From NCBI RefSeq assembly GCF_006385875.1, contig NZ_VFSU01000012.1, positions 1 through 64,000 of the forward strand: a DNA stretch of 64,000 nucleotides. The letters are read 5' to 3'. How positions within the stretch are numbered: position 1 is the stretch's first letter; each line of letters starts with the position of its first letter. The position numbers and the translations under genes were made by a program. The DNA is from Sandaracinobacter neustonicus (GTDB lineage Bacteria > Pseudomonadota > Alphaproteobacteria > Sphingomonadales > Sphingomonadaceae). Below the pieces are notes generated by a model. That model ran no database searches, had not been told where the DNA came from, and saw only the letters and a program-made list of their open reading frames with translations. This document shows, in pieces, positions 32,831 through 46,356 of this stretch.

Positions 32831-33631
32831 TTACGCCGGACTGCTCCAGTTCTGCTGCCTGAGCACGGTGTCTTTCTGGCCCCGGGCGATGAAGCGGGGT
32901 TGCAGGAAGCGGTAGAAGAACCAGTCTTTCTGGCTCGGCAGGGTGGCGTGGTAGAGGATGCGTTCGGGCAGGGTCCAGCGGACGGACTTGCGGTCTTCCC
33001 GGCGGGGGGAGGGTTGGACCCACAGGTCTGTGGCGTAGCTGATGCGGCCTTGTTTCCACAGGCGGTGCACCAGCTCATGGTCTTTCAGCACATAGGGCCA
33101 GAGGGCAGGGTCATAGCCGCCCGACGCTTTGTAGGGGGCCGTGCGGAACAGGTGGGCATAGCCGCCGCCATGCGCCTGATGGGTGAGGAGGTTGGGGATG
33201 ATGTGGGTGTAGAGCCAACGGCCGGCTCGTTCCCATCCGCTATGGGCGTTGGGGCCGGTATCATGGGCGATGAAGCCGATGGTGCTGGGGGCGGCGGCCT
33301 CCAGCCGGCGGGTGGCGGTTTCCAGATAGTGGGGCGGGTAGATTGTGTCGGCGTCGCAAATGGCGATGAATTCGGTGCGGACGGCGGCGATGCCCATGTT
33401 GAGCGCGTGCACCTGGCCGGGGATGGGTTGGGTGAGCAGGGTCGTTTCGATGCCCTGCTGTGTTTCCGCCCATTCCTGCGCACGCGCGGTGGTGGCGTCT
33501 GTGGAGCCGTTGTCCACCAGCACCACGCGGAACGGCCGCAGGGTTTGCGCGCTGAGGCTGGCGAGGGTGGCGGGGAGCCATTGTTCCTCGTTGAAATAGG
33601 GGATCACGATCGTCCAGCGCGGTTCGGGCAT
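32831..33631 (-). CDS. family 2 glycosyltransferase
   Basis: A 266-residue soluble GT-A glycosyltransferase. Motifs: WTIVIPYFNEEQWLPATLASL, VVLVDNGSTDATTARA, PGQVHALNMGI and EFIAICDADTIYPPHYL, where the DAD triad binds the nucleotide sugar through a metal. LKDHELVHRLWKQG supplies the acceptor-side acidic residues (ED-like DHE). There is no membrane segment. It likely adds a sugar to an envelope glycan, perhaps linked to the polysaccharide genes 34-46 kb, but it is separated by DUF952. Confidence 0.85.
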   Translation of the reverse strand: MPEPRWTIVIPYFNEEQWLPATLASLSAQTLRPFRVVLVDNGSTDATTARAQEWAETQQGIETTLLTQPIPGQVHALNMGIAAVRTEFIAICDADTIYPPHYLETATRRLEAAAPSTIGFIAHDTGPNAHSGWERAGRWLYTHIIPNLLTHQAHGGGYAHLFRTAPYKASGGYDPALWPYVLKDHELVHRLWKQGRISYATDLWVQPSPRREDRKSVRWTLPERILYHATLPSQKDWFFYRFLQPRFIARGQKDTVLRQQNWSSPA

Positions 33632-33715
33632 ATTTGCCCCCTAGCGGCTGGTGAGGCGTTGCGAAAGCTCGGGCGAAAGCTTGCGCGGATGCGTGGGCAG
33701 CGGCAGGAGACGGGA

Positions 33716-34015
33716 ATGGCTTTGTTCAAGATTTTTCGTGCCCGCGAATGGGTAGCCTTCGAGGCGGACGGGCGGTTCGAGGGCTCTGCCGACGATCTGC
33801 GGGACGGGTTCATCCATCTGTCTGCGGCGGCGCAGCTGGAGGGCACGTTGAAGCGGCATTTCGCCGGGGAAGGCGGGCTGGTGCTGGCGGAGGTGGATGT
33901 GGCGGACGATCCGGCGCTGAAGTGGGAGGAGTCGCGCGGCGGGGCGCTGTTCCCGCACCTGTATCGGCCGTTGCTGCTGGCCGATGTGGTGGGCCGGGCT
34001 GACCCCCCGGCCTGA
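33716..34015 (+). CDS. DUF952 family protein
   Basis: A 99-residue small protein with LFKIFRAREWVAFEADGRFEGSADDLRDGFIHLSAAAQL and DPALKWEESRGGALFPHLYRPL, the DUF952 signature (including GFIHLS and FPHLY). Function is unknown. The ATG at 33716 follows AGGAGACGG. Its TGA stop codon forms the loop of a GC-rich hairpin (34002-34028) shared with the convergent beta-helix gene. Confidence 0.85.
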   Translation: MALFKIFRAREWVAFEADGRFEGSADDLRDGFIHLSAAAQLEGTLKRHFAGEGGLVLAEVDVADDPALKWEESRGGALFPHLYRPLLLADVVGRADPPA

Positions 34016-34035: not shown

Positions 34036-35379
34036 TCAGTTGGTGACGGCGCGCACGGCCGCGGGCAGGTTGCCGGAGATGGCCTTCAGGATCGTGGCGG
34101 GGGTGGTCGCGTCTTGCGCTGCGCCCCAGTTTTCCGCCTTAACCGGATCCAGCGTGACGACCCCGTAAGAGAAGGTGCTGAGCAGGCCGATGCCCCGCGT
34201 GCGTGCGGACGACGGGTTGAGGGTGAGGAAGGCGCTGAGCGGCGGGTCTTTTTCCGTCGGGCGGCCGCCGAACACGGATTCCCAGCTTTCGCCGATCTTC
34301 CTTTCGGTATCGTAGAGGTCGATATTGTCGGCCCAGGTGGAATCTTCGCTGACACCGATGCCCTTCATGGTGATGTTCCGCGCCACCTCTACCTGCGAGA
34401 CGGTGGAGACGCGGATCTGCGGCTGCATCGCCCCGCCGGTGCGGCCGTCCGGCGTGCGCAGCGAGCTGTTATTCTTGTCTGCCCAGTGCGAGGCGACGAT
34501 CACATTGTTGAACAGCCTGGCACCGATGGTGCCGGCCAGGGTGATGCCGTGCAGCGCAGAGCCCCAATAGACGTTGCCGGTGATTTCCAGATTGCGGTGA
34601 TAGACGTTGGGAGCTTCGCTTCCCACGAACAGGCCGTGCACCGCGCCGTTCAGCCCCAATTGCATGAAGTTGTTGCGGATCTTCACATCGGTGACGCCGA
34701 CTGTTTCCTGCCTTGTCCAGAACTGGATCGCGTCCGGGTGTTCGCCCAGGCTGTAGTTGGGCTGGAAATTGTGGAAATGGTTGTTGGCGATTTCGCCGCC
34801 GGCCAGCGCGGCGACGTTCAGCCCTTCACGCACATAGCCGATGCTGTTGTGCAGCACCCGGACGTTGGTCGAGCGCTGCACATAGATGGCGACGCGCAGA
34901 TCCTCGAAATCATTGGAGCCGACGAGGATGTTGCTGGCGAAGCGCACATGCATCCCGCCCTGCCCATCGTCCCACGGGTCGCGGTTGATGTTGGCACCGC
35001 GGATGCGGTTGCCGGTGAAGCGGATGTTCTGGCCGGTGATGGAGACCACCGGGTTGGCGCTGGACTGCGCGTCGATGCCGCTGATGGAAAGGCCGGTCGC
35101 CGTGCCGAGCGTCATCTTGCCGAAGGCGGCCCGGTTCGAGGCGTCTGCGGAGCGGATGCTGACGAAGCCGCCGCTGTATTTGAACTTGGTGAAGCTGAAA
35201 TCCCCATAATGGCCGGGCGCCAGCAGGATGGTGTCTCCGGCAGTGGCAGCGGTGAGGGCATTCCACAGATCGGCGCGGTTGGCGGCGTTGAAGGTGCGGG
35301 CTTCGGCCGCGGCAGGGGCCGCAAGCGCGGCTGCGACTAGGGCGACGTGGAGGACTGGGCGGACGGCTGAAATGAACAT
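34036..35379 (-). CDS. exported right-handed parallel beta-helix protein (paralogue 1)
   Basis: A 447-residue protein with a signal peptide (FISAVRPVLHVALVAAALAAPAAAEA). The mature part starts FNAANRADLWNALTAATAGDTILLAPGHYG, the pectate-lyase-like entry to the helix, followed by repeated rungs with ..ISGIDA, ..RFTGNRI, ..RVLHNSI and ..EIANNHF. Shared motifs with the proteins at 38300 and 44193 are DPWDD, YVREGLNVAA, NYSLGEHPDAIQFW, VHGLF and NVYWGSALHGIT. The acid/His cluster EHPD is a candidate active site for a polysaccharide lyase or epimerase; this is inference. The start at 35379 fits the signal. Confidence 0.85.
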   Translation of the reverse strand: MFISAVRPVLHVALVAAALAAPAAAEARTFNAANRADLWNALTAATAGDTILLAPGHYGDFSFTKFKYSGGFVSIRSADASNRAAFGKMTLGTATGLSISGIDAQSSANPVVSITGQNIRFTGNRIRGANINRDPWDDGQGGMHVRFASNILVGSNDFEDLRVAIYVQRSTNVRVLHNSIGYVREGLNVAALAGGEIANNHFHNFQPNYSLGEHPDAIQFWTRQETVGVTDVKIRNNFMQLGLNGAVHGLFVGSEAPNVYHRNLEITGNVYWGSALHGITLAGTIGARLFNNVIVASHWADKNNSSLRTPDGRTGGAMQPQIRVSTVSQVEVARNITMKGIGVSEDSTWADNIDLYDTERKIGESWESVFGGRPTEKDPPLSAFLTLNPSSARTRGIGLLSTFSYGVVTLDPVKAENWGAAQDATTPATILKAISGNLPAAVRAVTN

Positions 35380-35572
35380 GGGGCGGACTCCGCTGGAATG
35401 AACCTGCCGCGGTGCGACCAAGCGACCCGGCTGACATGAGGACGTCGGCCGGGGCGGCGGTTTGCGCAGGTTAATGCGTGAATCCGTGGAAGGATTGACG
35501 AGCGGAAAGTCTTTGCTGTGAAAGGGTTAACGGTAGGGAGGTGGCGGCGTTAACGAATGGACGCCGGGCAGC

Positions 35573-36202
35573 TCAGGCGGCCGGGGTGGACTGGGCGGCG
35601 CGGGCGCGGCGGTAACCATCGCGGGCGGTGCAGCGGCCCCACCAGCCCCGTGTTTCAGGCCCCAGATCGGCCAGCAGGCCCAGCGTGCCCGCCAGCAGGC
35701 AGGCATAGCCGACGGCGATGTCGGCGGCGGTGAAGCGGCCAGCGGCCAGCCACTCCCGCCCGTCTGCCAGATGCGTTTCCACCCAGCCCATGCGGGAGAG
35801 GAACCATTTGGCATAGGCATCCGCCACGGCGGGCTGGCGCTTCTCCGGCGGCTCCAGCAGGCGGTAGCGCAGCACGAGGGTCTGCGGGAAGGTGAAGGTG
35901 GCGTCGGACTGGAACAGGTAGTTGGTGTAGAGCGCGAAATCCGCTTCATCCGGCGTAACGGCAAGCGGGGTGGGGCCATGTTTTGCCGCCAGATAGTGCA
36001 GGATGCCGCTACTTTCCGTGAGTTCGGCGGCCCCGTCTTTCAGGAAGGGGATGGTGCCCAGCGGGTTGATGGCGAGATAATCCGGCTGCTGCCAGCGCGG
36101 CGGAAAGGGCAGCAGGTGCAACGTATAGGGCAGGCCCATCTCCTCCAGCATCCACAGCGGGCGGAACGAGCGGGCATCTGCGCAGTGCCACAAATCCATC
36201 AT
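35573..36202 (-). CDS. glutathione S-transferase-like protein
   Basis: A 209-residue GST-fold protein. The N-terminal thioredoxin-like domain has MDLWHCADARSFRPLWMLEEMGLPYTLHLLPFPPR and NPLGTIPFLKDG..ELTESSGILHYLA (the GSH gamma-glutamyl site TESxAIxxYL variant); the C-terminal helical domain ends GPETRGWWGRCTARDG. The N-terminal CADARS region carries the likely catalytic Ser or Cys. Two adjacent ATG codons (36202, 36199) are possible starts. It is divergent from murA. Confidence 0.85.
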   Translation of the reverse strand: MMDLWHCADARSFRPLWMLEEMGLPYTLHLLPFPPRWQQPDYLAINPLGTIPFLKDGAAELTESSGILHYLAAKHGPTPLAVTPDEADFALYTNYLFQSDATFTFPQTLVLRYRLLEPPEKRQPAVADAYAKWFLSRMGWVETHLADGREWLAAGRFTAADIAVGYACLLAGTLGLLADLGPETRGWWGRCTARDGYRRARAAQSTPAA

Positions 36203-36266
36203 CTTCTCCCGTTGCGGTGCATAGCCACTCGCCTAGCCGCGCAGCAGCGGCTAATCACCCTGATCT

Positions 36267-37550
36267 ATGGACCAGATACGCATTTCGGGCGGACGCCCGC
36301 TGAAGGGGAAAATCCCGGTTTCCGGGGCGAAGAATGCGGCGTTGACGCTGCTGCCCGCCGCCTTGCTGACGGATGAGCCGCTGACCTTGCGCAACCTGCC
36401 CCGGCTGGCCGATGTGGACACCTTCGGGCATTTGCTGAACGTGCTGGGGGCCTCCACGCAGACGCAAGGCTCCCGCCCGGAGGATTTTGGGCGGGTGATG
36501 ACGATTTCCGCCAGCCGGATGACCTCCACCACCGCGCCTTATGACATCGTGCGGAAGATGCGCGCCTCCATCCTTGTGCTGGGGCCGTTGCTGGCGCGCG
36601 AGGGGGTGGCGACGGTCAGCCAGCCGGGCGGCTGCGCCATCGGCAACCGGCCGATCGATCTGCATCTGAAGGGCCTTGAGGCGCTGGGCGCGGAGATCGA
36701 GCTGACGTCGGGCTATGTGCGGGCGAAGGCGCCCAAGGGCGGGTTGACCGGCGGGCACATCATCTTCCCCGTCGTCAGCGTGGGGGCGACGGAGAATGTG
36801 CTGATGGCCGCCGTGCTGGCCAAGGGCCAGACGGTGATGGAAAATGCCGCGCGCGAGCCGGAGATTGTCGATCTGGCCAATTGCCTTGTCGCCATGGGCG
36901 CGCGGATTTCCGGCATCGGCACGGAACGCCTCGTGATCGACGGTGTGGACCGGCTGCACGGCGCGACCTACGCGGTGATGCCCGATCGGATCGAGGCGGG
37001 AAGCTATGCCTGCGCCGCGGCCATCACCGGCGGCGAAGTGGTGCTGCTGGGGGCCGACCGGGCGCTGCTGGGATCGACCTTGCCGGTGCTGGAGGCGGCC
37101 GGAGTTTCCTTCGAGGATGTGAAGGGCGGGCTGAAGGTGAGCCGCGCCAACGGGCTGCACGGGGTGACGGCCACCACCGCGCCATGGCCGGGGCTGGCGA
37201 CCGACATGCAGGCGCAGCTGATGGCGCTGGTGACGGTGGCGGACGGGGCTTCGGTGCTGACGGAAACCATCTTTGAAAACCGTTACATGCATGTGCCCGA
37301 GCTGGCGCGCATGGGGGCGGATATCACGGTGACGGGCCGCTCCGCCGTGGTGCGCGGGGTGCCGAAGCTGCATGGCGCGCCGGTGATGGCGACCGACCTT
37401 CGCGCCTCCATGAGCCTGGTGATCGCGGGCCTTGCGGCCGAGGGGGAGACGATCGTGCGGCGCGTCTACCATCTGGATCGCGGCTATGAACGGCTGGAGG
37501 AAAAGCTGCAGGCCGTGGGGGCGGACATCGAACGGGTGGACGGGGACTGA
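36267..37550 (+). CDS. murA: UDP-N-acetylglucosamine 1-carboxyvinyltransferase
   Basis: A 427-residue enzyme that transfers enolpyruvate from PEP to UDP-GlcNAc, the first committed step of peptidoglycan synthesis. [21 protein letters not shown] is the family start; the fosfomycin-target Cys is in [15 protein letters not shown] at residue 123; [36 protein letters not shown] and [32 protein letters not shown] follow. DUF2948 lies five bases downstream and may be co-transcribed. Confidence 0.97.
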
Positions 37551-37555
37551 GCGCG

Positions 37556-37963
37556 ATGACCGAGCTTCTGCTGCTGAGGGCCGAAGATGGCGAGGATCTG
37601 AAGATCCTGTCGGCCTGCGCGCAGGACATGGCCGTGAAGGCGATGGACGTCTCGTGGGAGCCGAAGCGGCGGCGGCTGGTGCTGCTGGGCAACCGCTATC
37701 GCTGGGAGGCGAAGGAGCCGACGCGGGTGCGCAGCGCCCTGCGCTTCGAAGGCGTGCTGGCAGTGGCGCGGCGTGAATGGCCCGACGAGCGGCATGCCGT
37801 GCTGCCGCTGCTGGCCGTGACGGAGAGCGTGCCCGGCGAGTTGGTGCTGGCATTCGGCGGCGGCACGGCGCTGCGGCTGCGGGTGGATGCGATCGATGTG
37901 ATTCTGGAAGATATGTCCGGCGCGTGGGGTGCGCTGGCGGTGCCGGGGCACGGGCAGGATTGA
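37556..37963 (+). CDS. DUF2948 family protein
   Basis: A 135-residue protein with LLLRAEDGEDLKILSACAQDMAVKAMDVSWEPKRRRLVLLGNRYRWE and ALRFEGVLAVARR, all DUF2948 hallmarks, followed by LRLRVDAIDVILEDMSGAW. The family often accompanies murA or hisD in Alphaproteobacteria; function unknown. The start lies five bases after the murA stop. The following gap 37964-38299 holds AT-rich sequence before the large beta-helix gene (ATAAAACAAAGGG just before its ATG) and no gene. Confidence 0.85.
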   Translation: MTELLLLRAEDGEDLKILSACAQDMAVKAMDVSWEPKRRRLVLLGNRYRWEAKEPTRVRSALRFEGVLAVARREWPDERHAVLPLLAVTESVPGELVLAFGGGTALRLRVDAIDVILEDMSGAWGALAVPGHGQD

Positions 37964-38299
37964 GGGGCGCCTGACCCCTGCCTGATTCCTGTCCGGCAAG
38001 GTGTCGGGGCAGGCTGATTCCTGACTTGAAAGCACGACGGGCGGTGCCGCGCAAACGATGGGCGGCCCTGTTCGGGGGGTGATTCGTGGCCGCCTTCGGC
38101 AGATACTGAATTGGCCGAATCGGCTGATTGTTGAGGCAATTGTGTCGGAAAGGTCATGTCTCGTCCGAAGAGCGCGCCCACGACTCGGCGGCAAAAAAGA
38201 ACGGTTCGCCGCTCGTCATGTCGAATTTTCTTGAGGCTGTCATGCAGCCGTGAATTTGTGTGACGGGTCGTAAAAAAATATAAAACAAAGGGTTGCTAA

Positions 38300-40408
38300 A
38301 TGTTGTTCAAGAAGGGTGCCGCATTGTGCGGCGCGACGATGCTTGCCGCTGTCTCGGGCTCGGCAATGGCGCAAACCCTCGTTCAGGACGATCTTGGTTA
38401 CGAGGATGTCGCCCGCGATAGCGGCATTATTCTTGGCGTGACCTCTCTCTCCAGCAGATCCGGAACGGCCGTTTCAGCTGTTCGCACGACGGCCGCCGCT
38501 TCCACTGCGAAGGCCGTGGTGACAACGCCCGCCGTCACCGTGACGCCGGCTGCCGCTGCGTCGGCTGCTGCTCCGGTGCAGGCCGTTGTCCCTTCCTCGA
38601 CGGTGGTGCCGGCCTCCATGGTGTTGGTGACGAAGGAAGACAGCCGCGACAGCGCTGCCTATCTGGGCGGCACCTTCCTGTCCGGGATCAACGTCGATAC
38701 GCTCCGTGCGCTGCTCGCGAAAATTGCGCCGGGTCTTGTGAACCTGCCGGCCGTGGTCGAGACCGTGCCGGCCGATCCTGTCGCCGAGACGCCCGCGCCG
38801 GAGATCACCACCCCGCCCGTGGCCGAAACAACGCCCGTGGCCGAAACAACGCCCGAGCCGACCACCCCGACCGCGTCTGAGACTGACCCGACGCGCGGGC
38901 CGGAGACGCCCGCCGAGGAAGCGACTTCGACGCCCGCCGAGGTGGTGAAGGAAGTGGTTCAGGACGTGATCGACACCGTCACCGAGGTGGTGAATGAGGT
39001 GGTCGACACCGTGAAGGACGTGGTGGAAACCGTTGTGGATGCCGTGACCGGCGGCGAAGCCAGCGGCGGCTCCGGCGTGGACACCTCTGGCACGACGGAC
39101 ACCGACACCCTGCCCACAACGCCTGTGGTGACCAGCCCGGCGGCTCCGGTGGAGGAGGTTTCCACACCGGCCACCCCGGCGCAGAACGGCCAGTTGCCGG
39201 CCGTGGAGAAGACCTTCGATGTCTATAACCTGGCGCAGCTGCGCGCGGCGCTGGCGGAAGCGTTGAACCTGTCTGGCGCGATCATCCGCATCCATCCGGG
39301 CAATTATGCCGCGCTGAGCTGGATCAATCGCGATTACAGCAAGGGGCGCGTTTATCTGATCGCCGCCACCGACGAAAAGCCGGTGTTCACCCAGATGAAC
39401 TTCGCAAATTCGAAGAACATTGTGATCAGCGGGGTTCAGGTTTCCAGCGCCGAGGGCATATTGGTGTCGTTCGTGGGGGCATCCAACATGGTGCTCACAT
39501 CCAGCCTTCTGACCAGCGAGGAAAATGACACCGACCCGTGGAATAACGGGAACACCGGGATTCACATCCGCTTCGCCTCGAACATCACCGTGCAGGATGT
39601 GACCATCTCTGACCTGCGGCTGGCTGCTTTTGTGCAGCGCTCGTCCAACGTGGCGATCCGCTATGGCACGATGAAGTATGTGCGCGAGGGGCTGAACGTC
39701 GCCGCGGTCGATAACCTGTTGCTGGAGCGCAATTATTTCTCGGAGATCCACCCCAATTATGCCCTGAAGGAACATCCGGACGCGGTGCAGTTCTGGAACC
39801 GCAACGAGGTGGCCGGTGTCAGCAATGCCCGGCTGATCGAGAATGTGATGATGCTTGGCGGTTGCCGCGCGGTGCAGGGCCTGTTCCTGAGTACCGAGCT
39901 GAACGCTTACCCGCACCGGAATCTCGAGATCCGCGGCAATGTCTATTACGGCGCGTCTCCGCACGGGATCACGGTGGGCGTTGCTGATGGCGTGAAGCTG
40001 GTGGGCAATGTGGTGTTGGTGTCGCCATGGGGTGAACGCAACAACAGCATCCGCTCGGAAGACGGGCGTTGCAGCGGCGGCTACAAGCCCAGAATGGCTG
40101 TGAACAAGGCGACGAATGTCGAGGCCCATGACAATATCGGCTCGGGAGTGCCGCTGGTTCTGGCGGATGCCAATACATACAACAACTTCAAGGTGTATGA
40201 CAAAACCTACGGCGGCACTCCGTGGGAGGATCTGCTGGCTGCGCGGCCGATGGCCGACACGCCGAAGCTTGAGGAGTTCGTGACCAAGGATCCGTCGGAG
40301 GCGCGGAGCGCGGGCGCGGGTATGCTGGCGGTATTCCCGCACGGAGACCGTCAACTCGGCAGGATCCAGGGCATGCTGGACGCACTGGCGGTCCACAGCG
40401 GTTCCTGA
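38300..40408 (+). CDS. exported beta-helix protein with low-complexity N-terminal region (paralogue 2)
   Basis: A 702-residue protein. A signal peptide (LFKKGAALCGATMLAAVSGSAMAQ) is followed by about 280 residues rich in Val, Thr, Ala, Pro and Glu, including a tandem PVAETT duplication (18-bp DNA repeat near 38816) and an amphipathic EVV/DTV stretch (VVKEVVQDVIDTVTEVVNEV). The beta-helix begins near residue 312 (FDVYNLAQLRAALAEALN). Shared motifs with the paralogues are DPWNN, YVREGLNVAA, NYALKEHPDAVQFW, VQGLF and NVYYGASPHGIT. The upstream leader ends in AAAGGGTTGCTAA before the ATG. The N-terminal part may act as a spacer that projects the helix from the cell. Confidence 0.85.
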   Translation: MLFKKGAALCGATMLAAVSGSAMAQTLVQDDLGYEDVARDSGIILGVTSLSSRSGTAVSAVRTTAAASTAKAVVTTPAVTVTPAAAASAAAPVQAVVPSSTVVPASMVLVTKEDSRDSAAYLGGTFLSGINVDTLRALLAKIAPGLVNLPAVVETVPADPVAETPAPEITTPPVAETTPVAETTPEPTTPTASETDPTRGPETPAEEATSTPAEVVKEVVQDVIDTVTEVVNEVVDTVKDVVETVVDAVTGGEASGGSGVDTSGTTDTDTLPTTPVVTSPAAPVEEVSTPATPAQNGQLPAVEKTFDVYNLAQLRAALAEALNLSGAIIRIHPGNYAALSWINRDYSKGRVYLIAATDEKPVFTQMNFANSKNIVISGVQVSSAEGILVSFVGASNMVLTSSLLTSEENDTDPWNNGNTGIHIRFASNITVQDVTISDLRLAAFVQRSSNVAIRYGTMKYVREGLNVAAVDNLLLERNYFSEIHPNYALKEHPDAVQFWNRNEVAGVSNARLIENVMMLGGCRAVQGLFLSTELNAYPHRNLEIRGNVYYGASPHGITVGVADGVKLVGNVVLVSPWGERNNSIRSEDGRCSGGYKPRMAVNKATNVEAHDNIGSGVPLVLADANTYNNFKVYDKTYGGTPWEDLLAARPMADTPKLEEFVTKDPSEARSAGAGMLAVFPHGDRQLGRIQGMLDALAVHSGS

Positions 40409-40442
40409 TCGTGGCCTTCTGAAGAACAGGCTGACAATGGCG

Positions 40443-40484
40443 GGAGCGCGCGGGCCGATGGGATCGCGCGCTCCTTCCTTTGTT
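40443..40484 (+). terminator. terminator after beta-helix paralogue 2
   Basis: Perfect 10-bp stem: GGAGCGCGCG (40443-40452) and CGCGCGCTCC (40465-40474), loop of 12 bases, followed by TTCCTTTGTT. It lies 35 bases past the stop codon and separates paralogue 2 from the ligase-like gene. Confidence 0.75.
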
Positions 40485-40558
40485 GCAGCCGCGTTAAGCT
40501 ACCTTTGTTTACCGGTTTACGTCTGGCCCCGGCTTTCCCCTTTCGCTATGACGACGGC

Positions 40559-42163
40559 ATGATCGGCCTTCGCGACAGAATCCTGCCGCCCTACACCCGT
40601 CGGGTGGACGACCTGCGGCACAGGCTTTCGAAATATGTCGCGATCTTCGCGCTGATCCTCGTGGCGATGTTCATGGGCTTCTGGCTGGCCGTGTTCGGCA
40701 CGCTGGTGGTGCAGCCCTTCTTCATGCTGGTGGGGGTGTTGTTCCTGATCTCGCTGTGGCTGCTGGACGATACGGAGCCGGACCTTCGGCCGGCGTTGAC
40801 GAAGATTCTGCTGATCTATGCCGCACTGGAGGTGATCTGGCCGTCGTATCTGGCGGTCGCCATTCCCGGCCTTCCGTGGATCACCCCGCCGCGGCTGACG
40901 CTGCTGATCATGATGTTCGTGGTGACGCTGCAATTCGCGCAATCCAGCCGTGCTCGTGGCGAAGTGCTGGAAGCGCTGGCCTACAGCAAGCATGCCATGT
41001 GGTTTCTGGGTGTTTTCTGGGCACTTGCCTTTGCGACGAGCCTGCTGTCGCCGACACCGGGCACATCCTTCGTGATGGTGCTGGAATGGTTCCTGCTGTG
41101 GAATATGCCGTTCGTGGTGGCGGTCTGGCTGTTCGGAGACCGGGAGACCTTCGCGCGCTTCATCCGCATCACCTTATGGGCGACCTGCTTCGTTTTCGTG
41201 CTGACGGTGCTGGAATATATCCAGCGCCGGCCGATCTGGTTCGGCTATATCCCCTCGTTCCTGAAGATCGAGGGGCCGCTGTTCAACGCGCTGATGCAGG
41301 AACAGGTGCGTGTCGGCGATGATCGCTATCGCGCGCGCGGGGTGTTCGCCGTCCACCTCTATTACGCGCAGTTCATCCTGATGGTGACGCCCTTCATCCT
41401 GCACAAGGCGATCGAGAACCGGGGCTGGATGCGCTTTTGGGCCTGTGCGCTCCTGCTGCTCAACCTGGTGATCATCTGGATGACCAACACGCGAACGGGG
41501 ATGTCTGGTTTCATCCTGGTGTGTGCCGGCATGATCGGGCTGTATGCGCTGAGGCGCTTTCTGAATCCGACCAGCAAGGCCGACATGGTGGCGCCTGGTA
41601 TCTTCATAGCGGTACCAGTGGGGATCCTGATGCTGGGGGTTCTGATCGCGTCCAGCAAGCGTCTGCAGATCATGACCATCGGCGGGGCGCAGACGCGGGG
41701 CAGCGATCGGGGCCGGGACATGCAGTGGCAGAAGGGCTGGGCTGCGCTGGAGACGAACCCGTTCGGGCATGGCGGGGGCATCTCGGCCAAGATCGCCGGC
41801 CGATACGTCAATGATCGCTACATCATCGACAGCCTGTGGCTGAACTTCCTGCTGGATTTCGGCGTGCTGGCCTTCGCCGCCTTCATGGGCTTCCTGATTA
41901 CAACCGCATATTATGGTGTGCGCATGTATGTGACCGCAAAGGACGAGACCGTGCGCCTGATGGGGCCAGCCGCCGTCGCCGTGGGCGGGCTGGTGCTGAC
42001 CTCTTACACCATCAGCTTCACCGGCAACATGCCCTTCATGATGATGCTGGTGGGGGCGGTCTATGCGTTCCGGCGCATTGAGCTGAAAGAGGCTGCGGCC
42101 CTGAAGCAGCCGATCCCGAAGCCGGTTGCCCTGATGCCCTTGCGATCTTCGTTCCGAGTGTGA
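40559..42163 (+). CDS. O-antigen ligase/polymerase-like membrane protein
   Basis: A 534-residue polytopic protein with about a dozen hydrophobic segments (for example KYVAIFALILVAMFMGFWLAVFG, TLLIMMFVVTLQFAQ, TLWATCFVFVLTVLEYI, CALLLLNLVIIWMTNTRTGMSGFIL). The segment NTRTGMSGFILVC is the TRTG-like motif of the Wzy/WaaL family, and a large periplasmic loop (after about residue 365: RGSDRGRDMQWQKGWAALETNPFGHGGG) fits the family. It polymerises or ligates lipid-linked glycans at the periplasmic face. The ATG at 40559 is preferred; a frame to 40505 adds 18 residues. Substrate unknown. Confidence 0.85.
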   Translation: MIGLRDRILPPYTRRVDDLRHRLSKYVAIFALILVAMFMGFWLAVFGTLVVQPFFMLVGVLFLISLWLLDDTEPDLRPALTKILLIYAALEVIWPSYLAVAIPGLPWITPPRLTLLIMMFVVTLQFAQSSRARGEVLEALAYSKHAMWFLGVFWALAFATSLLSPTPGTSFVMVLEWFLLWNMPFVVAVWLFGDRETFARFIRITLWATCFVFVLTVLEYIQRRPIWFGYIPSFLKIEGPLFNALMQEQVRVGDDRYRARGVFAVHLYYAQFILMVTPFILHKAIENRGWMRFWACALLLLNLVIIWMTNTRTGMSGFILVCAGMIGLYALRRFLNPTSKADMVAPGIFIAVPVGILMLGVLIASSKRLQIMTIGGAQTRGSDRGRDMQWQKGWAALETNPFGHGGGISAKIAGRYVNDRYIIDSLWLNFLLDFGVLAFAAFMGFLITTAYYGVRMYVTAKDETVRLMGPAAVAVGGLVLTSYTISFTGNMPFMMMLVGAVYAFRRIELKEAAALKQPIPKPVALMPLRSSFRV

Positions 42164-42165
42164 GG

Positions 42166-42560
42166 CCGGCGGCGGCTGACGAAATCGGCATCGTCCACCA
42201 CCACGACATACGCCGACGGACCGGCAATGAGCAGGGCGGCCAGCACGCGGCGGCCCTTGTCCGTGCGGACGGCGTTCAGGAACTCGTCTCCCTTGCCTGC
42301 CCTTGTCGCATATAGCGCTCATTGGGCGGGAAGCTCACGCGGAGACATCATGGACGCCGGGCGCGGCAGCGGGGACAGGGTCGCGCCCTCCTGCGCAGCG
42401 ATACAGGCCGCCAGTTGGGATTTTCCTGAAGGCAGAGCGAAGCCGGCGCCTGGCTGAGGGCCGCCTTCAGCGCCGGCCAGTCGGCGGCATTGTCTGGATG
42501 GCGGACGGGTCTGCCCCGGTGGACACCAAAGCTCCGCTGCGGCTCGTCTTGCTGTTCGTC
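42166..42560 (-). pseudogene. possible degraded gene between ligase and flippase genes
   Basis: This 395-bp minus-strand interval has no intact gene. Successive stretches of coding-like, GC-rich third-codon-position sequence lie in different frames: one beginning just after the flippase stop (with RSFGVHRGRPVRHP and ADWPALKAALSQAP), a second with QLAACIAAQEGATL, and a third near 42170-42280 (GDEFLNAVRTDKGRRVLAAL, then AYVVVVDDADFVSRR). They could be remnants of one frameshifted gene. The call rests on codon-position composition read by eye and is weak; no family is recognised. Confidence 0.25.
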
Positions 42561-42561
42561 A

Positions 42562-44028
42562 TCAGATTCGTTCCCTGACCCGGCGCAGGATATCCGTGCA
42601 GCCCTTCCTGTCGATCACCCAGATACAGACCGCATATAGAAGCACGCCGGTAGCGACGCTGAGCGGCAGGCGCAGGATGGTGTGGGGAATATGGCCGGTG
42701 AGCCACTGATCGAGCGCCAGAACGGCCATCCCCATCAGCGCGGCGGCAAGGATGGGCCGCCAAATGGCGGAGAGGATATGCAGCAGGTTGATGCCGATCA
42801 TCCGGGCCAGAATGTGGCTGTGAATCGGCACGAACAGAAACTGCATGGCAAAGCGTGTCCATACCACCGCCATCAGGCCATGATCGGCGGCGAAATAGAT
42901 GCAGACAAGGCTCGTCACCGCTGTGATCATGTTCCAGTGAAACTGGAAGCGGGCGACACCGCGCGCGGACAGCACGGCGTTGTTCAGCTCGAGCACCGTG
43001 CTCAACAACGTGTAGATGGCGACCGGGCCAAGCACGTCCGCCACCGGGGCCCATTTGGGCCCCAGCAGCAGATCCGTGATCGGGACCGCCATTGCCCAGA
43101 TCCCGAACAAGACCGGTGCCATGATGATGAAGGTGGCGTGCAGCGTGGTGAGGTAGCCCAAGGCGATACGGGCGGGTTCTGCCTGCAGCGACGACAGAAT
43201 CGGGAAGATGGTGCGCCGGATCGAGGTGGTGACGGTTCTGACCGGCGAGACGATGATCTGCTGGGCAAGCGTGAGGTAGCCAAGATCGGCGGGTGGCAGC
43301 TTCTTGCCCACGACCGGGCGTTCGGCATAGCCGGAGATGATCCCCAGGACGCCCGCCAGCGTGATGTAGCTGCTGTAGGCTATGAGAGGGCGCAGCGCTT
43401 CCAGCGAGAAGGCGAGGCGCGGACGCCAGCCGCTGGTGCGGAAACACATGATGACGATGGTGAGGCAGATCGCATATTGCTGGGCCAGCAGTGCGAACAC
43501 CGAGGCCCCGCCTGCCGCCAGCCCGACCGCGACGACCGCGCCCGCAAGGCCCGCGACGAACTCAGCCTTTGCAATGCTCTGGAAGCGGAACTCGCGTTCC
43601 AGCATCGACATGGGCACCCCCTGGGCTGCCACGAGAATCAGGATCGGCGCGATGGCCCGGACATAAGGCGTGAGCCTTGGTTCATCAAACAGGCTGGCGA
43701 TGGGGCCGGCCAGCGCGAACATCAGCCCGGCGGCGATCGTGCCCAGCGTCAGCGAGGCCCAGAACACGCTGTCCTGCTCCAGTCGCGAGACCTCTTTCTG
43801 TTGCACCAGCGCGATGCGCAGGCCGAAATCGGCGAACACCTGTGTGAAGGTGATCAGGAAGAAGATCAGCGCGAACAGGCCGAATTCGGTGGGCGTGAGG
43901 AAGCGCGAGAGCAGGCTGATTGTGCCGATGCCGATCAGCGCGCGCAGGCCGCGTGACAAGGCTGCGGCCCCCGATCCGAGCGCGGCGGCGCGGGCGAGAC
44001 CGGCTTTGGGCGGGGTGGAATTATCCAT
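42562..44028 (-). CDS. Wzx-like oligosaccharide flippase (MOP superfamily)
   Basis: A 488-residue polytopic protein of the polysaccharide-transporter family. ALSRGLRALIGIGTISLLSRFLTPTEFGLFALIFFLITFTQVFADFGLRIALVQ is the typical start (SRFLTPxEFG); pairs of membrane segments run through IGYxxLAQQI-like LGYLTLAQQIIVSPVRTV and the C-terminal VLALDQWLTGHIPH. It moves undecaprenyl-linked oligosaccharide across the inner membrane. The ATG at 44028 begins MDNSTPPKAG. Gene order with the ligase/polymerase and glycosyltransferases suggests a Wzy-type pathway. Confidence 0.9.
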   Translation of the reverse strand: MDNSTPPKAGLARAAALGSGAAALSRGLRALIGIGTISLLSRFLTPTEFGLFALIFFLITFTQVFADFGLRIALVQQKEVSRLEQDSVFWASLTLGTIAAGLMFALAGPIASLFDEPRLTPYVRAIAPILILVAAQGVPMSMLEREFRFQSIAKAEFVAGLAGAVVAVGLAAGGASVFALLAQQYAICLTIVIMCFRTSGWRPRLAFSLEALRPLIAYSSYITLAGVLGIISGYAERPVVGKKLPPADLGYLTLAQQIIVSPVRTVTTSIRRTIFPILSSLQAEPARIALGYLTTLHATFIIMAPVLFGIWAMAVPITDLLLGPKWAPVADVLGPVAIYTLLSTVLELNNAVLSARGVARFQFHWNMITAVTSLVCIYFAADHGLMAVVWTRFAMQFLFVPIHSHILARMIGINLLHILSAIWRPILAAALMGMAVLALDQWLTGHIPHTILRLPLSVATGVLLYAVCIWVIDRKGCTDILRRVRERI

Positions 44029-44192
44029 TGTTATCTGTTGATCTGCCCCATCGTGCTGCACACGCACACGCGGCCTTCTATGGCGGGGCGGGGCGTCAGG
44101 CTCAAGCGGGAAGTTGGTTGAGGCGGGGGGTGGATGGGGGCACTCGAATCTGATCGCCCCGACCGCACCGGCGCATGAGAAGGCCCCGGAGC

Positions 44193-45434
44193 CTAAGGCG
44201 CGGGCGGCAGTTCCGCGCCGCAGATCAGGCGGGCGCCCTGCCCTGCCTTGCCTGCGGCGGAGTCGGGATTGACGATGAATGCCTCCAGCGGTGGTTCCGA
44301 GCCTTTGGGCGGGTTCAGGAAGATTTTCCGCAGGGGCGTGCCGTTGTTGCCACGCGCCTGGGCGGTGAGGTTGTTGCTGCCTTCGACGGTTTCGAGGATC
44401 GTGAAGGAGGTGGAGATGTTGCTGCTGATGCGGCCGCTGGAGGTGGCCCCGACGGCGCGGATCTTGGGGATGAGGGCGCTGGAGTTGCGGCCGTCTGTGG
44501 TTCGCTGCGGCACCGGCTGGGTTTCGACATGGTCTGAGCCGAGGACCGTGTTGCGTTCGATCAGCACATTGTCTGCGCCGCTCAGCGAGATGCCGTGGAG
44601 CGCCGAGCCGTAATAGATATTGTCGCGCACGATGGTGTTGCGCAGGCGGAACTTCGGATCGACTTCCGGCTTGGGGGTGCCGCCGCCGAAGATACCATGC
44701 ACGGCGCGCGGGCCGCCGAGGTTCAGGAAATTGCCTTCGATCAGCGTATTGTTGCTGTTGCTCACGTCGCGCGCGCCCCAGAACTGGATCGCGTCGGGAT
44801 GTTCCTTCAGCCCGTAATTGGGCATCATGTGGGAAAAGCGGTTGCAGCGGATCGTGCCGTCATCCACGCTGACCCAGTTGAGGCCTTCGCGGATGTAGGC
44901 GAAGCTGTTGCCTGCGACCACGATCTTGCGGCTGATGCTGACCTGCATGGCGGTCGCCACTTCGCGGAAGCGGTTGTTGCGGATTTCCACATCATCCGTG
45001 TTGCGAAGGCCGATGCCGATTCCGCGATCGTCCCATGGATCATTGTTGATGTTCTGGCCGCGAATCAGGCTGTTGCTGACACGGATGGACTGGCTGTTCT
45101 CGATCCGGACGATGCGGCCGCGCTCATCGTAGGAGCCGCCGATTTCCACGCCCTGCAGTGTCCAGCCGGAGGAGCCGATGATCTGCGCGTTGGGGAACAC
45201 GGCCCCCTTGCCGCTGATGGTGACGGGCGCGCCGGACAGCTTGCGGCCGTTGATGATGAGCGGGGCGTAAGCGCCGGGCGCGACGATGATCCGGTCTCCG
45301 GCGCGGACGGTGGCCAGCGCACTGTTCAACTGGGCGTCTGAGGAAACGGCGATGTCGCGGGCGTCTGCGCTGCTGCAGCCGATGAGGGCGGGCAGCAGGC
45401 CGAACAACAGCGGCGACGAACGGGGGCACGGCAT
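44193..45434 (-). CDS. beta-helix lipoprotein (paralogue 3)
   Basis: A 413-residue protein with a lipoprotein signal (LLFGLLPALIGCSS, lipobox LIGC). The helix starts IAVSSDAQLNSALATVRAGDRIIVAPGAY. Shared motifs with paralogues 1 and 2: NSLIRGQNINNDPWDD, YIREGLN, NYGLKEHPDAIQFW, VHGIF and NIYYGSALHGIS. The C-terminal part (EAFIVNPDSAAGKAGQGARLICG) also parallels the ends of the others. It is therefore a membrane-anchored member of the set; a role in processing an exported polysaccharide is inferred. The start at 45434 begins the signal; the longer frame upstream overlaps the glycosyltransferase gene. Confidence 0.85.
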   Translation of the reverse strand: MPCPRSSPLLFGLLPALIGCSSADARDIAVSSDAQLNSALATVRAGDRIIVAPGAYAPLIINGRKLSGAPVTISGKGAVFPNAQIIGSSGWTLQGVEIGGSYDERGRIVRIENSQSIRVSNSLIRGQNINNDPWDDRGIGIGLRNTDDVEIRNNRFREVATAMQVSISRKIVVAGNSFAYIREGLNWVSVDDGTIRCNRFSHMMPNYGLKEHPDAIQFWGARDVSNSNNTLIEGNFLNLGGPRAVHGIFGGGTPKPEVDPKFRLRNTIVRDNIYYGSALHGISLSGADNVLIERNTVLGSDHVETQPVPQRTTDGRNSSALIPKIRAVGATSSGRISSNISTSFTILETVEGSNNLTAQARGNNGTPLRKIFLNPPKGSEPPLEAFIVNPDSAAGKAGQGARLICGAELPPAP

Positions 45435-45450
45435 GGGCTGGGGCCTTTCG

Positions 45451-46356
45451 CTAGCGGGAGATGCCGAGGGCGTTGAGGATCGAGAGCAGCGCCATGCGCG
45501 GATCGAGCGGGGCGAGGCTGCGGGCTTCGGCGAACCATGGGGCGGCGCGCTTGTGCTCTCCCATGTGGCGCAGATTGCCCGCGATGCGGTGCAGGTGGAA
45601 CAAATGCGCCTTCGGATGCTGTTCGAAGCGGGCACTGTGCTTGTTGAGCAGGGCGATCCAGCTGTCGACCCGCTTGGCGCGATCGCGGGTGATGCTGTTG
45701 GGGGTGAAGCGCTGGATCACCAGCGGCTCATCGGTGAAGGCGATGCTGCCCTGTTCGGCAAGGCGGATGGCGATATCCCAATCCACCAGCGATTTCAGGC
45801 TGGTATCGAACATGCCGATGTCGATCAGCGTCTGGCGGCGGGCGAGCAGGGTTTGTGTGCTGATGGGGTTGGTGGCCATCAGCGTGGGGAGGATATGGCC
45901 GGAGACATGGGTGACGGCGGGATCGGGGTGATAGGCGATGCGCTGGCGGCCGGTGCGGCCGGTGGCTGGATCGTCCGCCGTGCCGGTGATCAGCAGGCCG
46001 CAGTAGACGGCGACGGGATCATCCGTGGCAGCGGCCAGCGTTGCCAGTTGCCGCTCCAGCTTGCGCGGCAGCCATTCGTCATCCGAATCCTGAAAGGCGA
46101 TCCAGTTGCCGCGCGATTCGCGGATACCGCTGTTGCGGGCGGCGGAAATGCCGCCGTTGGGCTGGCGGATCAGCCGCACGCGCGGATCGGCGATGGCTTC
46201 GACGCGGGCGGCGGTGGCGTCTGCCGAGCCATCGTCGACCACGATCACTTCCAGCGGCGGGCGGGTTTGCGACAGCACGCTGCGCACGGCGGTTTCGATG
46301 GTGGCTTCCCGATTATAGGCCGGGATGACGACGGAAATGCTGGAATCTTCTGCCAT
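45451..46356 (-). CDS. family 2 glycosyltransferase
   Basis: A 301-residue GT-A glycosyltransferase. SISVVIPAYNREATIETAVRSVLSQT, VIVVDDGSADATAARVEA, GGISAARNSGI and IAFQDSDDEWLPRKLERQ carry the nucleotide-sugar and metal sites (DSDD). SLVDWDIAIRLAEQG holds the acceptor-side acid. The C-terminus (HKRAAPWFAEARSLAPLDPRMALLSILNALG) resembles a helical tail seen in some exopolysaccharide glycosyltransferases. It is 16 bases upstream of beta-helix paralogue 3 on the same strand, indicating a shared transcript. Confidence 0.9.
   Translation of the reverse strand: MAEDSSISVVIPAYNREATIETAVRSVLSQTRPPLEVIVVDDGSADATAARVEAIADPRVRLIRQPNGGISAARNSGIRESRGNWIAFQDSDDEWLPRKLERQLATLAAATDDPVAVYCGLLITGTADDPATGRTGRQRIAYHPDPAVTHVSGHILPTLMATNPISTQTLLARRQTLIDIGMFDTSLKSLVDWDIAIRLAEQGSIAFTDEPLVIQRFTPNSITRDRAKRVDSWIALLNKHSARFEQHPKAHLFHLHRIAGNLRHMGEHKRAAPWFAEARSLAPLDPRMALLSILNALGISR

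Follow-up and report, generated by a model that had tools for sequence, protein, structure and literature searches.

The window considered here, that is, the whole stretch of 64,000 nucleotides that was analysed (contig NZ_VFSU01000012.1, positions 1 to 64,000), comes from Sandaracinobacter neustonicus, a member of the Sphingomonadaceae whose 3.65 Mb genome is assembled into 34 contigs. It contains the genes for three paralogous right-handed β-helix proteins, BH1, BH2 and BH3, which by sequence are homologues of the R protein encoded in sphingan clusters (SpnR/WelR type). Within this known family the trio makes up a new branch, present in triplicate and with different targeting; its fresh features are a tight tie to one polymerase family, a conserved HxDxxQ/Arg set and three N-terminal forms. 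The genes and their core motifs are located as follows (signal peptides of BH1 and BH2 and the lipobox of BH3 assigned by eye):

34036..35379, minus strand: BH1, right-handed β-helix protein of 447 aa, secreted, with a Sec-type signal peptide
34723..34740, minus strand: core motif HPDAIQ of BH1 (H214, D216, Q219)
38300..40408, plus strand: BH2, β-helix protein of 702 aa, with a signal peptide and a spacer of about 280 residues, rich in Pro, Thr, Ala and Val, that precedes the helix
38939..39046, plus strand: valine-rich run of the BH2 spacer with the look of an amphipathic helix (read directly from the sequence)
39773..39790, plus strand: core motif HPDAVQ of BH2
44193..45434, minus strand: BH3, β-helix protein of 413 aa, with the lipobox LIGC (Cys20)
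44784..44801, minus strand: core motif HPDAIQ of BH3

Pairwise comparison of the three proteins gives 39%, 34% and 30% identity over 382, 385 and 401 columns, with E-values of 5e-88, 3e-60 and 1e-45, far beyond chance, and a genome-wide search at E ≤ 0.001 finds them as the sole members of their family. The preliminary description of this DNA had placed the three paralogues correctly, and the different anchoring that it proposed agrees with the N-termini as read by eye (Sec signal, long spacer, lipobox), BH3 probably being an outer-membrane lipoprotein. A valine-rich run similar to that of the BH2 spacer is seen in the partner of BH2 in the genome G250. A DNA pattern encoding EHPD occurs three times in the window, once per BH gene (shuffled sequences: mean 0.48, maximum 2), and all three frames are open with a high third-position GC content (0.84, 0.79 and 0.84 for BH1, BH2 and BH3). 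A phage origin was rejected: BH1 is unmatched at E ≤ 0.01 among 50,697 phage records, and in PHROGs BH1 and BH2 have no match and BH3 has one, of unknown function, at E 0.0011.

Aligned with the R protein of Sphingomonas pituitosa, BH1 shows 28% identity over 305 columns (E 1e-24), and the Wzy-type polymerase of the window aligns with the G protein of the same organism with 27% identity over 439 columns (E 2e-33). The S. pituitosa R gene is flanked by a Q-like glycosyltransferase gene and the flippase gene S, the polymerase gene G comes next, and the Wza- and Wzz-like genes D and C lie to the left. The gene letters presume correspondence with the sphingan cluster, and the Pfam content and order of the cluster fit sphingan genes: J (AAA), L and Q (family 2 glycosyltransferases, GT2), K (GT28 and an Alg14-like part), I (SurA-like), R (β-helix and laminin G), S (flippase) and G (Wzy_C). 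The roles of the sphingan genes used for this assignment follow parts of PMC4443731, and S. pituitosa is counted as a sphingan producer in a section of PMC5399355. WelR, a protein of 675 aa with a β-helix and laminin G, is reported to liquefy welan gel and to free reducing sugar (PMC7899989, in part). According to passages of PMC5399355, the lyase SpnR frees polysaccharide, and overexpressed gelR freed sanxan or capsule from the cell surface of strain NX02. Given this homology and the reported action of WelR, the earlier notion of an undescribed system does not hold.

Like WelR, SpnR and GelR, the trio has a right-handed β-helix, and the S. pituitosa counterpart shares the HPDAIQ and QGIF regions and the position beside a homologous Wzy gene; unlike them, the window proteins are free of laminin G (no match at E ≤ 0.1), carry Sec or lipoprotein signals, are three in number and constitute a branch of their own. 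Among 18 distant relatives, laminin G is present in four and RTX in one. Searches of open-licence PubMed Central papers, not all of them aimed at this point, found no tripled R-type lyase.

Among the genes next to the trio, the polymerase, flippase and GT2a genes are of the kinds named in the preliminary description, with Wzy_C, Polysacc_synt_3 and GT2 domains respectively:

40559..42163, plus strand: Wzy-type polymerase with a Wzy_C domain (domain search), homologue of the sphingan G protein
42562..44067, minus strand: Wzx-like flippase of the Polysacc_synt_3 type, not of the sphingan S type
45451..46356, minus strand: GT2a, family 2 glycosyltransferase, on the same strand as BH3 and 16 bases upstream of it
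32831..33631, minus strand: GT2b, family 2 glycosyltransferase, near BH1 and also near the BH1 partners in the genomes G250 and G101

The tie to the polymerase was surveyed in 298 Sphingomonadaceae genomes with a profile of the trio for the family and a profile (A3) for Wzy, the latter made from Wzy genes near family members. The family was found in 40 genomes and Wzy in 45, with both in 37, the family alone in 3, Wzy alone in 8 and neither in 250 (Fisher p 8e-36); Wzy is thus present in 37 of the 40 genomes with the family versus 8 of the 258 without it. Genomes within one genus are not independent, which is answered in part by the count at genus level (17 with both, 2 with the family alone, 1 with Wzy alone, 76 with neither), where Wzy is found in 17 of 19 genera with the family versus 1 of 77 without. 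A family gene and Wzy lie less than 10 kb apart in 20 of the 37 genomes, compared with about 0.55 expected by chance if random placement in 3.1 Mb is assumed; the rest comprise 10–30 kb (2 genomes), a larger distance on one contig (3) and different contigs (12, including broken assemblies). Outside the host's own genus, Wzy accompanies the family in 32 of 35 genomes, GT2b in 6 and GT2a in 4 (p 0.09 for both GT2 genes), and the latter two were rejected as partners across the Sphingomonadaceae. The locus L057 of genome g21, where homologues of GT2a, BH and Wzy stand beside tricarboxylic acid cycle and other genes, was likewise rejected as a full polysaccharide cluster.

Starting from homology, co-occurrence, gene positions and predicted fold, the trio can with reasonable probability be regarded as R-family lyases that trim a sphingan-like slime or set it free, with the three copies targeted differently, as soluble, long-spacer and lipoprotein forms. 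BH1–BH3 would be envelope-targeted enzymes acting on an acidic exopolysaccharide of the host, made by a sphingan-like Wzx/Wzy pathway to which the genes of the window and of contig C29 would jointly belong. Polymerisation of the repeat units would fall to the Wzy beside BH2, and chain initiation and export would fall to the XrtV locus on C29. The R proteins would then cut the finished chain, most likely at a uronic acid, either for trimming or for release from the cell. With BH1 being soluble, BH2 placed on its long spacer and BH3 residing in the outer membrane, the three would divide the labour by applying one cutting chemistry at different places, and the proposed active site would consist of His-x-Asp-x-x-Gln and an Arg on adjacent coils. 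A lyase activity is likely by analogy with WelR, the relative for which a simple assay is described.

A more specific version of this proposal is tentative and, taken as a whole, rather doubtful. It holds that three lyases with one undescribed HxDxxQ/Arg site occupy three envelope places and act in turn on one polymer, the periplasmic form clearing stray chain, the spacer form cutting and the outer-membrane form releasing, and, jointly with this, that the HxDxxQ group would be a lyase family with a site of its own, present in sphingomonads, in Phenylobacterium and on roseobacter slime plasmids. The finding joins a little-studied step, the cutting and release of sphingan-type slime, to a set of conserved residues that mutagenesis can address, and joins the same step to a polymerase that travels with the family across the Sphingomonadaceae. 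If the copies differ in place, not in chemistry, they would provide a natural test of where the envelope sets chain length and release, which would be of value for gums made industrially, gellan and welan among them.

The candidate site emerges from an alignment of 90 rows, reduced to 81 by dropping 9 repeats and to 73 by removing 8 rows with poor coverage of residues 130–285; BH1, BH2 and BH3 are included, and some genomes contribute several rows. H214 and D216 (BH1 numbering) are invariant in all 73 rows, Q219 is present in 69 (His in 4), G249 in 70 and R184, the sole Arg conserved in at least 80% of the rows, in 68; position 248 is Gln in 65, whereas BH1 has His there, as do 3 rows. The loci L004–L015 were picked by two patterns, [KG]EHPDA[IV]Q and another that ends in DPW, and motif conservation among these loci is thus partly built in, yet HxD is retained in 38 of the 73 rows that do not have HPDA. 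The motifs named in the preliminary description are all present in BH1, BH2 and BH3. At the level of at least 80% of the rows, REGLN is represented by R184 and G186, NYxLxEHPDAIQFW by P207, H214, D216, I218, Q219 and W221, and the other motifs by Q/H248, G249, I250, F251, N269, G278 and I279. DPW[DN][DN] is not family-wide, as none of its residues reaches 80% across the 73 rows.

Asn 237, 269 and 292 are invariant in the family alignment and presumably represent the structural Asn ladder of β-helices. The BH1 model (mean pLDDT 89.7) has strands at 141–146, 161–176, 183–198, 216–220, 248–252 and 277–285; when read by Asn ladder position, these would form one sheet in successive coils, and in BH1, the protein modelled, the conserved polar residues are read as lying in that sheet or in the loops before it. 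The cleft of other β-helix lyases lies at this sheet. The predicted strand positions argue against scattered buried turns, and the conserved residues are inferred to line one pocket. The reported WelR mutants (L19, F352, N382, M383, N494, Q558 and E568; PMC7899989, in part) appear to miss the HxDxxQ/Arg set, if WelR is numbered as the S. pituitosa protein.

This conservation also bears on the idea that the trio has no catalytic role and serves instead, by binding polysaccharide or as part of the matrix, to keep the slime on the surface. The lipoprotein and spacer forms would fit such an anchoring role, as would the laminin G domain in four of the 18 distant relatives, but two invariant residues and a nearly invariant Arg on neighbouring strands are more than binding seems to need, and gelR is reported to free capsule, not to hold it (PMC5399355, in part). 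A purely binding role is therefore considered unlikely.

A Foldseek search of the BH1 model against the PDB lists chondroitinase B, alginate lyases of polysaccharide lyase family 6 (PL6) and RbmB (rank 7) near the top, in line with the lyase-like fold suggested earlier. Because the TM-scores (query length) lie at 0.21–0.49 among the 50 matches listed, the predicted structure indicates a fold class, not an enzyme. The likeness to PL6 comprises the best fold matches, a similar N-terminal cap in the BH proteins (best E 7.5e-9) and the match of 5 of the 18 relatives to the Chondroitinas_B model at E ≤ 0.01. The scored sequence similarity, however, precedes the HxDxxQ region with the conserved residues, and filing under PL6 was rejected for this reason. 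PL6 enzymes need a catalytic Lys/Arg and a calcium site, and the PL6 enzyme AlyGC is named among the structure matches as its R241A mutant. RbmB of Vibrio cholerae, described in parts of PMC11637428 as a lyase for the host's own Wzy/Wzx-like polymer VPS, provides a functional parallel as a β-helix lyase; it differs in its polymer and is absent from the solved structures matched by sequence.

The same fold class is shared by C5-epimerases, and the trio could alter uronic acids without cutting, as do AlgG or the secreted AlgE. An alginate epimerase/lyase ranks 25 and AlgG 38 in the fold search, and the several export forms together with the single RTX relative recall secreted AlgE. PL6 lyases and RbmB rank higher, however, AlgE6 and AlgE4 match a profile of residues 138–300 only at E 0.93 and 1.6, and the motif DPHD of mannuronan C5-epimerases (AlgG/AlgE) is not among the conserved columns of the 73 rows. 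In addition, depolymerisation is what is reported for the one relative that has been tested (PMC7899989, in part), and epimerisation is judged quite unlikely.

The export gene set, correctly noted before as lying outside the window, is represented by an XrtV locus on contig C29. This locus encodes EpsI type V and exosortase V, each scoring above its cut-off, as well as kinase, Wzz, Wza and EpsL homologues below the equivalog cut-offs, and the sole Bac_transf match of the genome, on the same contig, is above the cut-off for glucose phosphotransferase (TIGR03023). Next come homologues of J (356 bits), L (111 bits) and I (195 bits), with another GT2 before the last of these, then genes read as rmlA, rmlC, rmlD and rmlB (rmlC and rmlD from their N-termini by eye). 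As homologues of sphingan genes in the host genome, C scores 260 bits, D 189 bits and F 54 bits, with E represented by the kinase match only. Contig C11 carries a nucleotide-sugar dehydrogenase domain (E 9e-68), although its open frame has just 279 residues; the gene lists come from a simple open-reading-frame picker and are rough, with false frames kept and genes that can be missed. Because C29, C11 and C28 hold initiating, export and sugar genes, the genome most likely contains a dispersed sphingan-like pathway, with the polymerase and R genes in the window. A split Alg14-like and GT28 pair on C28 (L145, 9689–10650), made of an overlapping Alg14-like gene and a GT28 C-terminal gene, may be a split glucuronosyltransferase; it sits between acyl-CoA dehydrogenase and molybdopterin-binding genes.

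Scattered sanxan and gellan gene sets resemble this arrangement, since gelG, gelS and gelR are reported off the main cluster in one producer, as are G and R here (PMC5399355, in part). In the same source, spnR is given as absent from the sanxan strain NX02, whereas the window host has three R-type genes. On the Novosphingobium plasmid p2, homologues of R, XrtV, C, D, F, I, K and J lie within one 14 kb stretch, in which G and S were not seen, and this supports the link of R genes to the XrtV pathway. The locus L096 (NZ_CP063447.1:1-14244), on a conjugative Novosphingobium plasmid, unites XrtV, Wza, Wzz, WelK, J, I and an R-type gene and is a sphingan-like cluster on a mobile plasmid.

That the window has a flippase and GT2 genes of its own, and that C11 carries a second Wza-like gene, could mean that the trio serves a separate polymer outside the XrtV pathway, for example a second capsule or O-antigen. 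The genome's sole initiating transferase of the Bac_transf type, the type that was searched, nevertheless belongs to the XrtV locus, and in Novosphingobium p2 an R gene shares its 14 kb with XrtV and a set of sphingan letters, so that a separate polymer is improbable. The idea of NosD-like copper-binding proteins, prompted by PF05048 scoring above cut-off for BH1 and BH3, was rejected as highly improbable, since BH1, BH2 and BH3 reach only 25.6, 14.6 and 48.5 bits, far under the 300-bit cut-off of NCBIfam NosD (TIGR04247), and no nos protein is among the other 7 window proteins scanned.

Several points weigh against R-family lyases acting on a sphingan-like slime. The family has no counterpart of the catalytic Lys of PL6, with no Lys in at least 80% of the 73 rows. 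Among solved structures, none aligns convincingly with the HxDxxQ region in a search with the profile of residues 138–300, which gave weak, mostly repeat-type matches without HxDxxQ among those listed. The S. pituitosa gene is taken as the counterpart of WelR from its size, domains and place. WelR itself is said to be without a signal peptide, the trio is without laminin G, and the WelR assays described in sections of PMC7899989 (dinitrosalicylic acid (DNS) reducing sugar and gel loss) are no proof of β-elimination. A tree rooted only at the midpoint parts the trio from the sphingan R proteins (UFBoot/SH-aLRT 99/99), and by this tree the trio is not orthologous to them. In the host pathway, the K transferase is represented by the weak split pair on C28 (E 1.5e-11), the Q transferase by only 17 bits in the C29 stretch and the S flippase by a weak best match on another contig (E 2.6e-5). 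No family match occurs in the genome G163, which is of the host's own genus and carries Wzy and the XrtV locus together with an S-type flippase. In the survey, the family is without Wzy in 3 of 40 genomes, and in 15 of 37 the two lie on separate contigs or at a distance of more than 30 kb. When the own genus is counted as well, GT2b (11 of 40) and GT2a (8 of 40) are above chance (p 0.001), and the contrast between Wzy and GT2 is unequal, as a ten-row profile at E 1e-20 is compared with single proteins at 1e-30 and 1e-40.

The genome G250 also has three family members in a like neighbourhood, with Wzy, GT2a, GT2b, murA and the DUF2948 gene present in changed order and a close flippase lacking. 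Because BH1, BH2 and BH3 each pair with their own G250 member in the tree (100/97, 99/92 and 100/98), the three copies are older than the split of the window species and G250. The G250 partner of BH3 has the lipobox LAGC and that of BH2 a long spacer; the genome G101 carries four family members.

In the window, GT2a, BH3 and the flippase form a co-directional run, separated by 16 and 125 bases; on the opposite strand, BH2 and Wzy are co-directional and 150 bases apart. An EPSP-synthase-family gene, probably murA, and a DUF2948 gene lie between BH1 and BH2, likewise in G250. The proposed co-occurrence with Wzx- and Wzy-like genes in other genomes holds for Wzy and not for the window flippase, which has matches in 4 of 16 genomes searched, its own counted, with a close one (46%) only in G101. 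This flippase does not align with the S protein of S. pituitosa, and its membership in a conserved unit was rejected on both grounds. Among six genomes of the host's genus, an S-type flippase was found in G163 beside its Wzy gene (30%, E 5e-34) and in G284 near its GT2b gene (27%, E 7e-22). Because these two have an S-type flippase and the host genome has only the weak match noted above, the window's lineage may have exchanged its flippase. G163 (L116, L093) represents a natural comparison without the enzyme.

A probable DUF952 gene lies between GT2b and BH1 (33671–34015, plus strand; start approximate, by eye). In the genome G229, one open frame (L106, 555–3503) contains two near-identical family β-helix domains in tandem. 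R-type relatives also occur on roseobacter plasmids amid polysaccharide genes (L095, 10001–11149; L094, 12001–13002; L097, 12001–12948), one of them beside type I secretion genes, and with sulfotransferase genes nearby.

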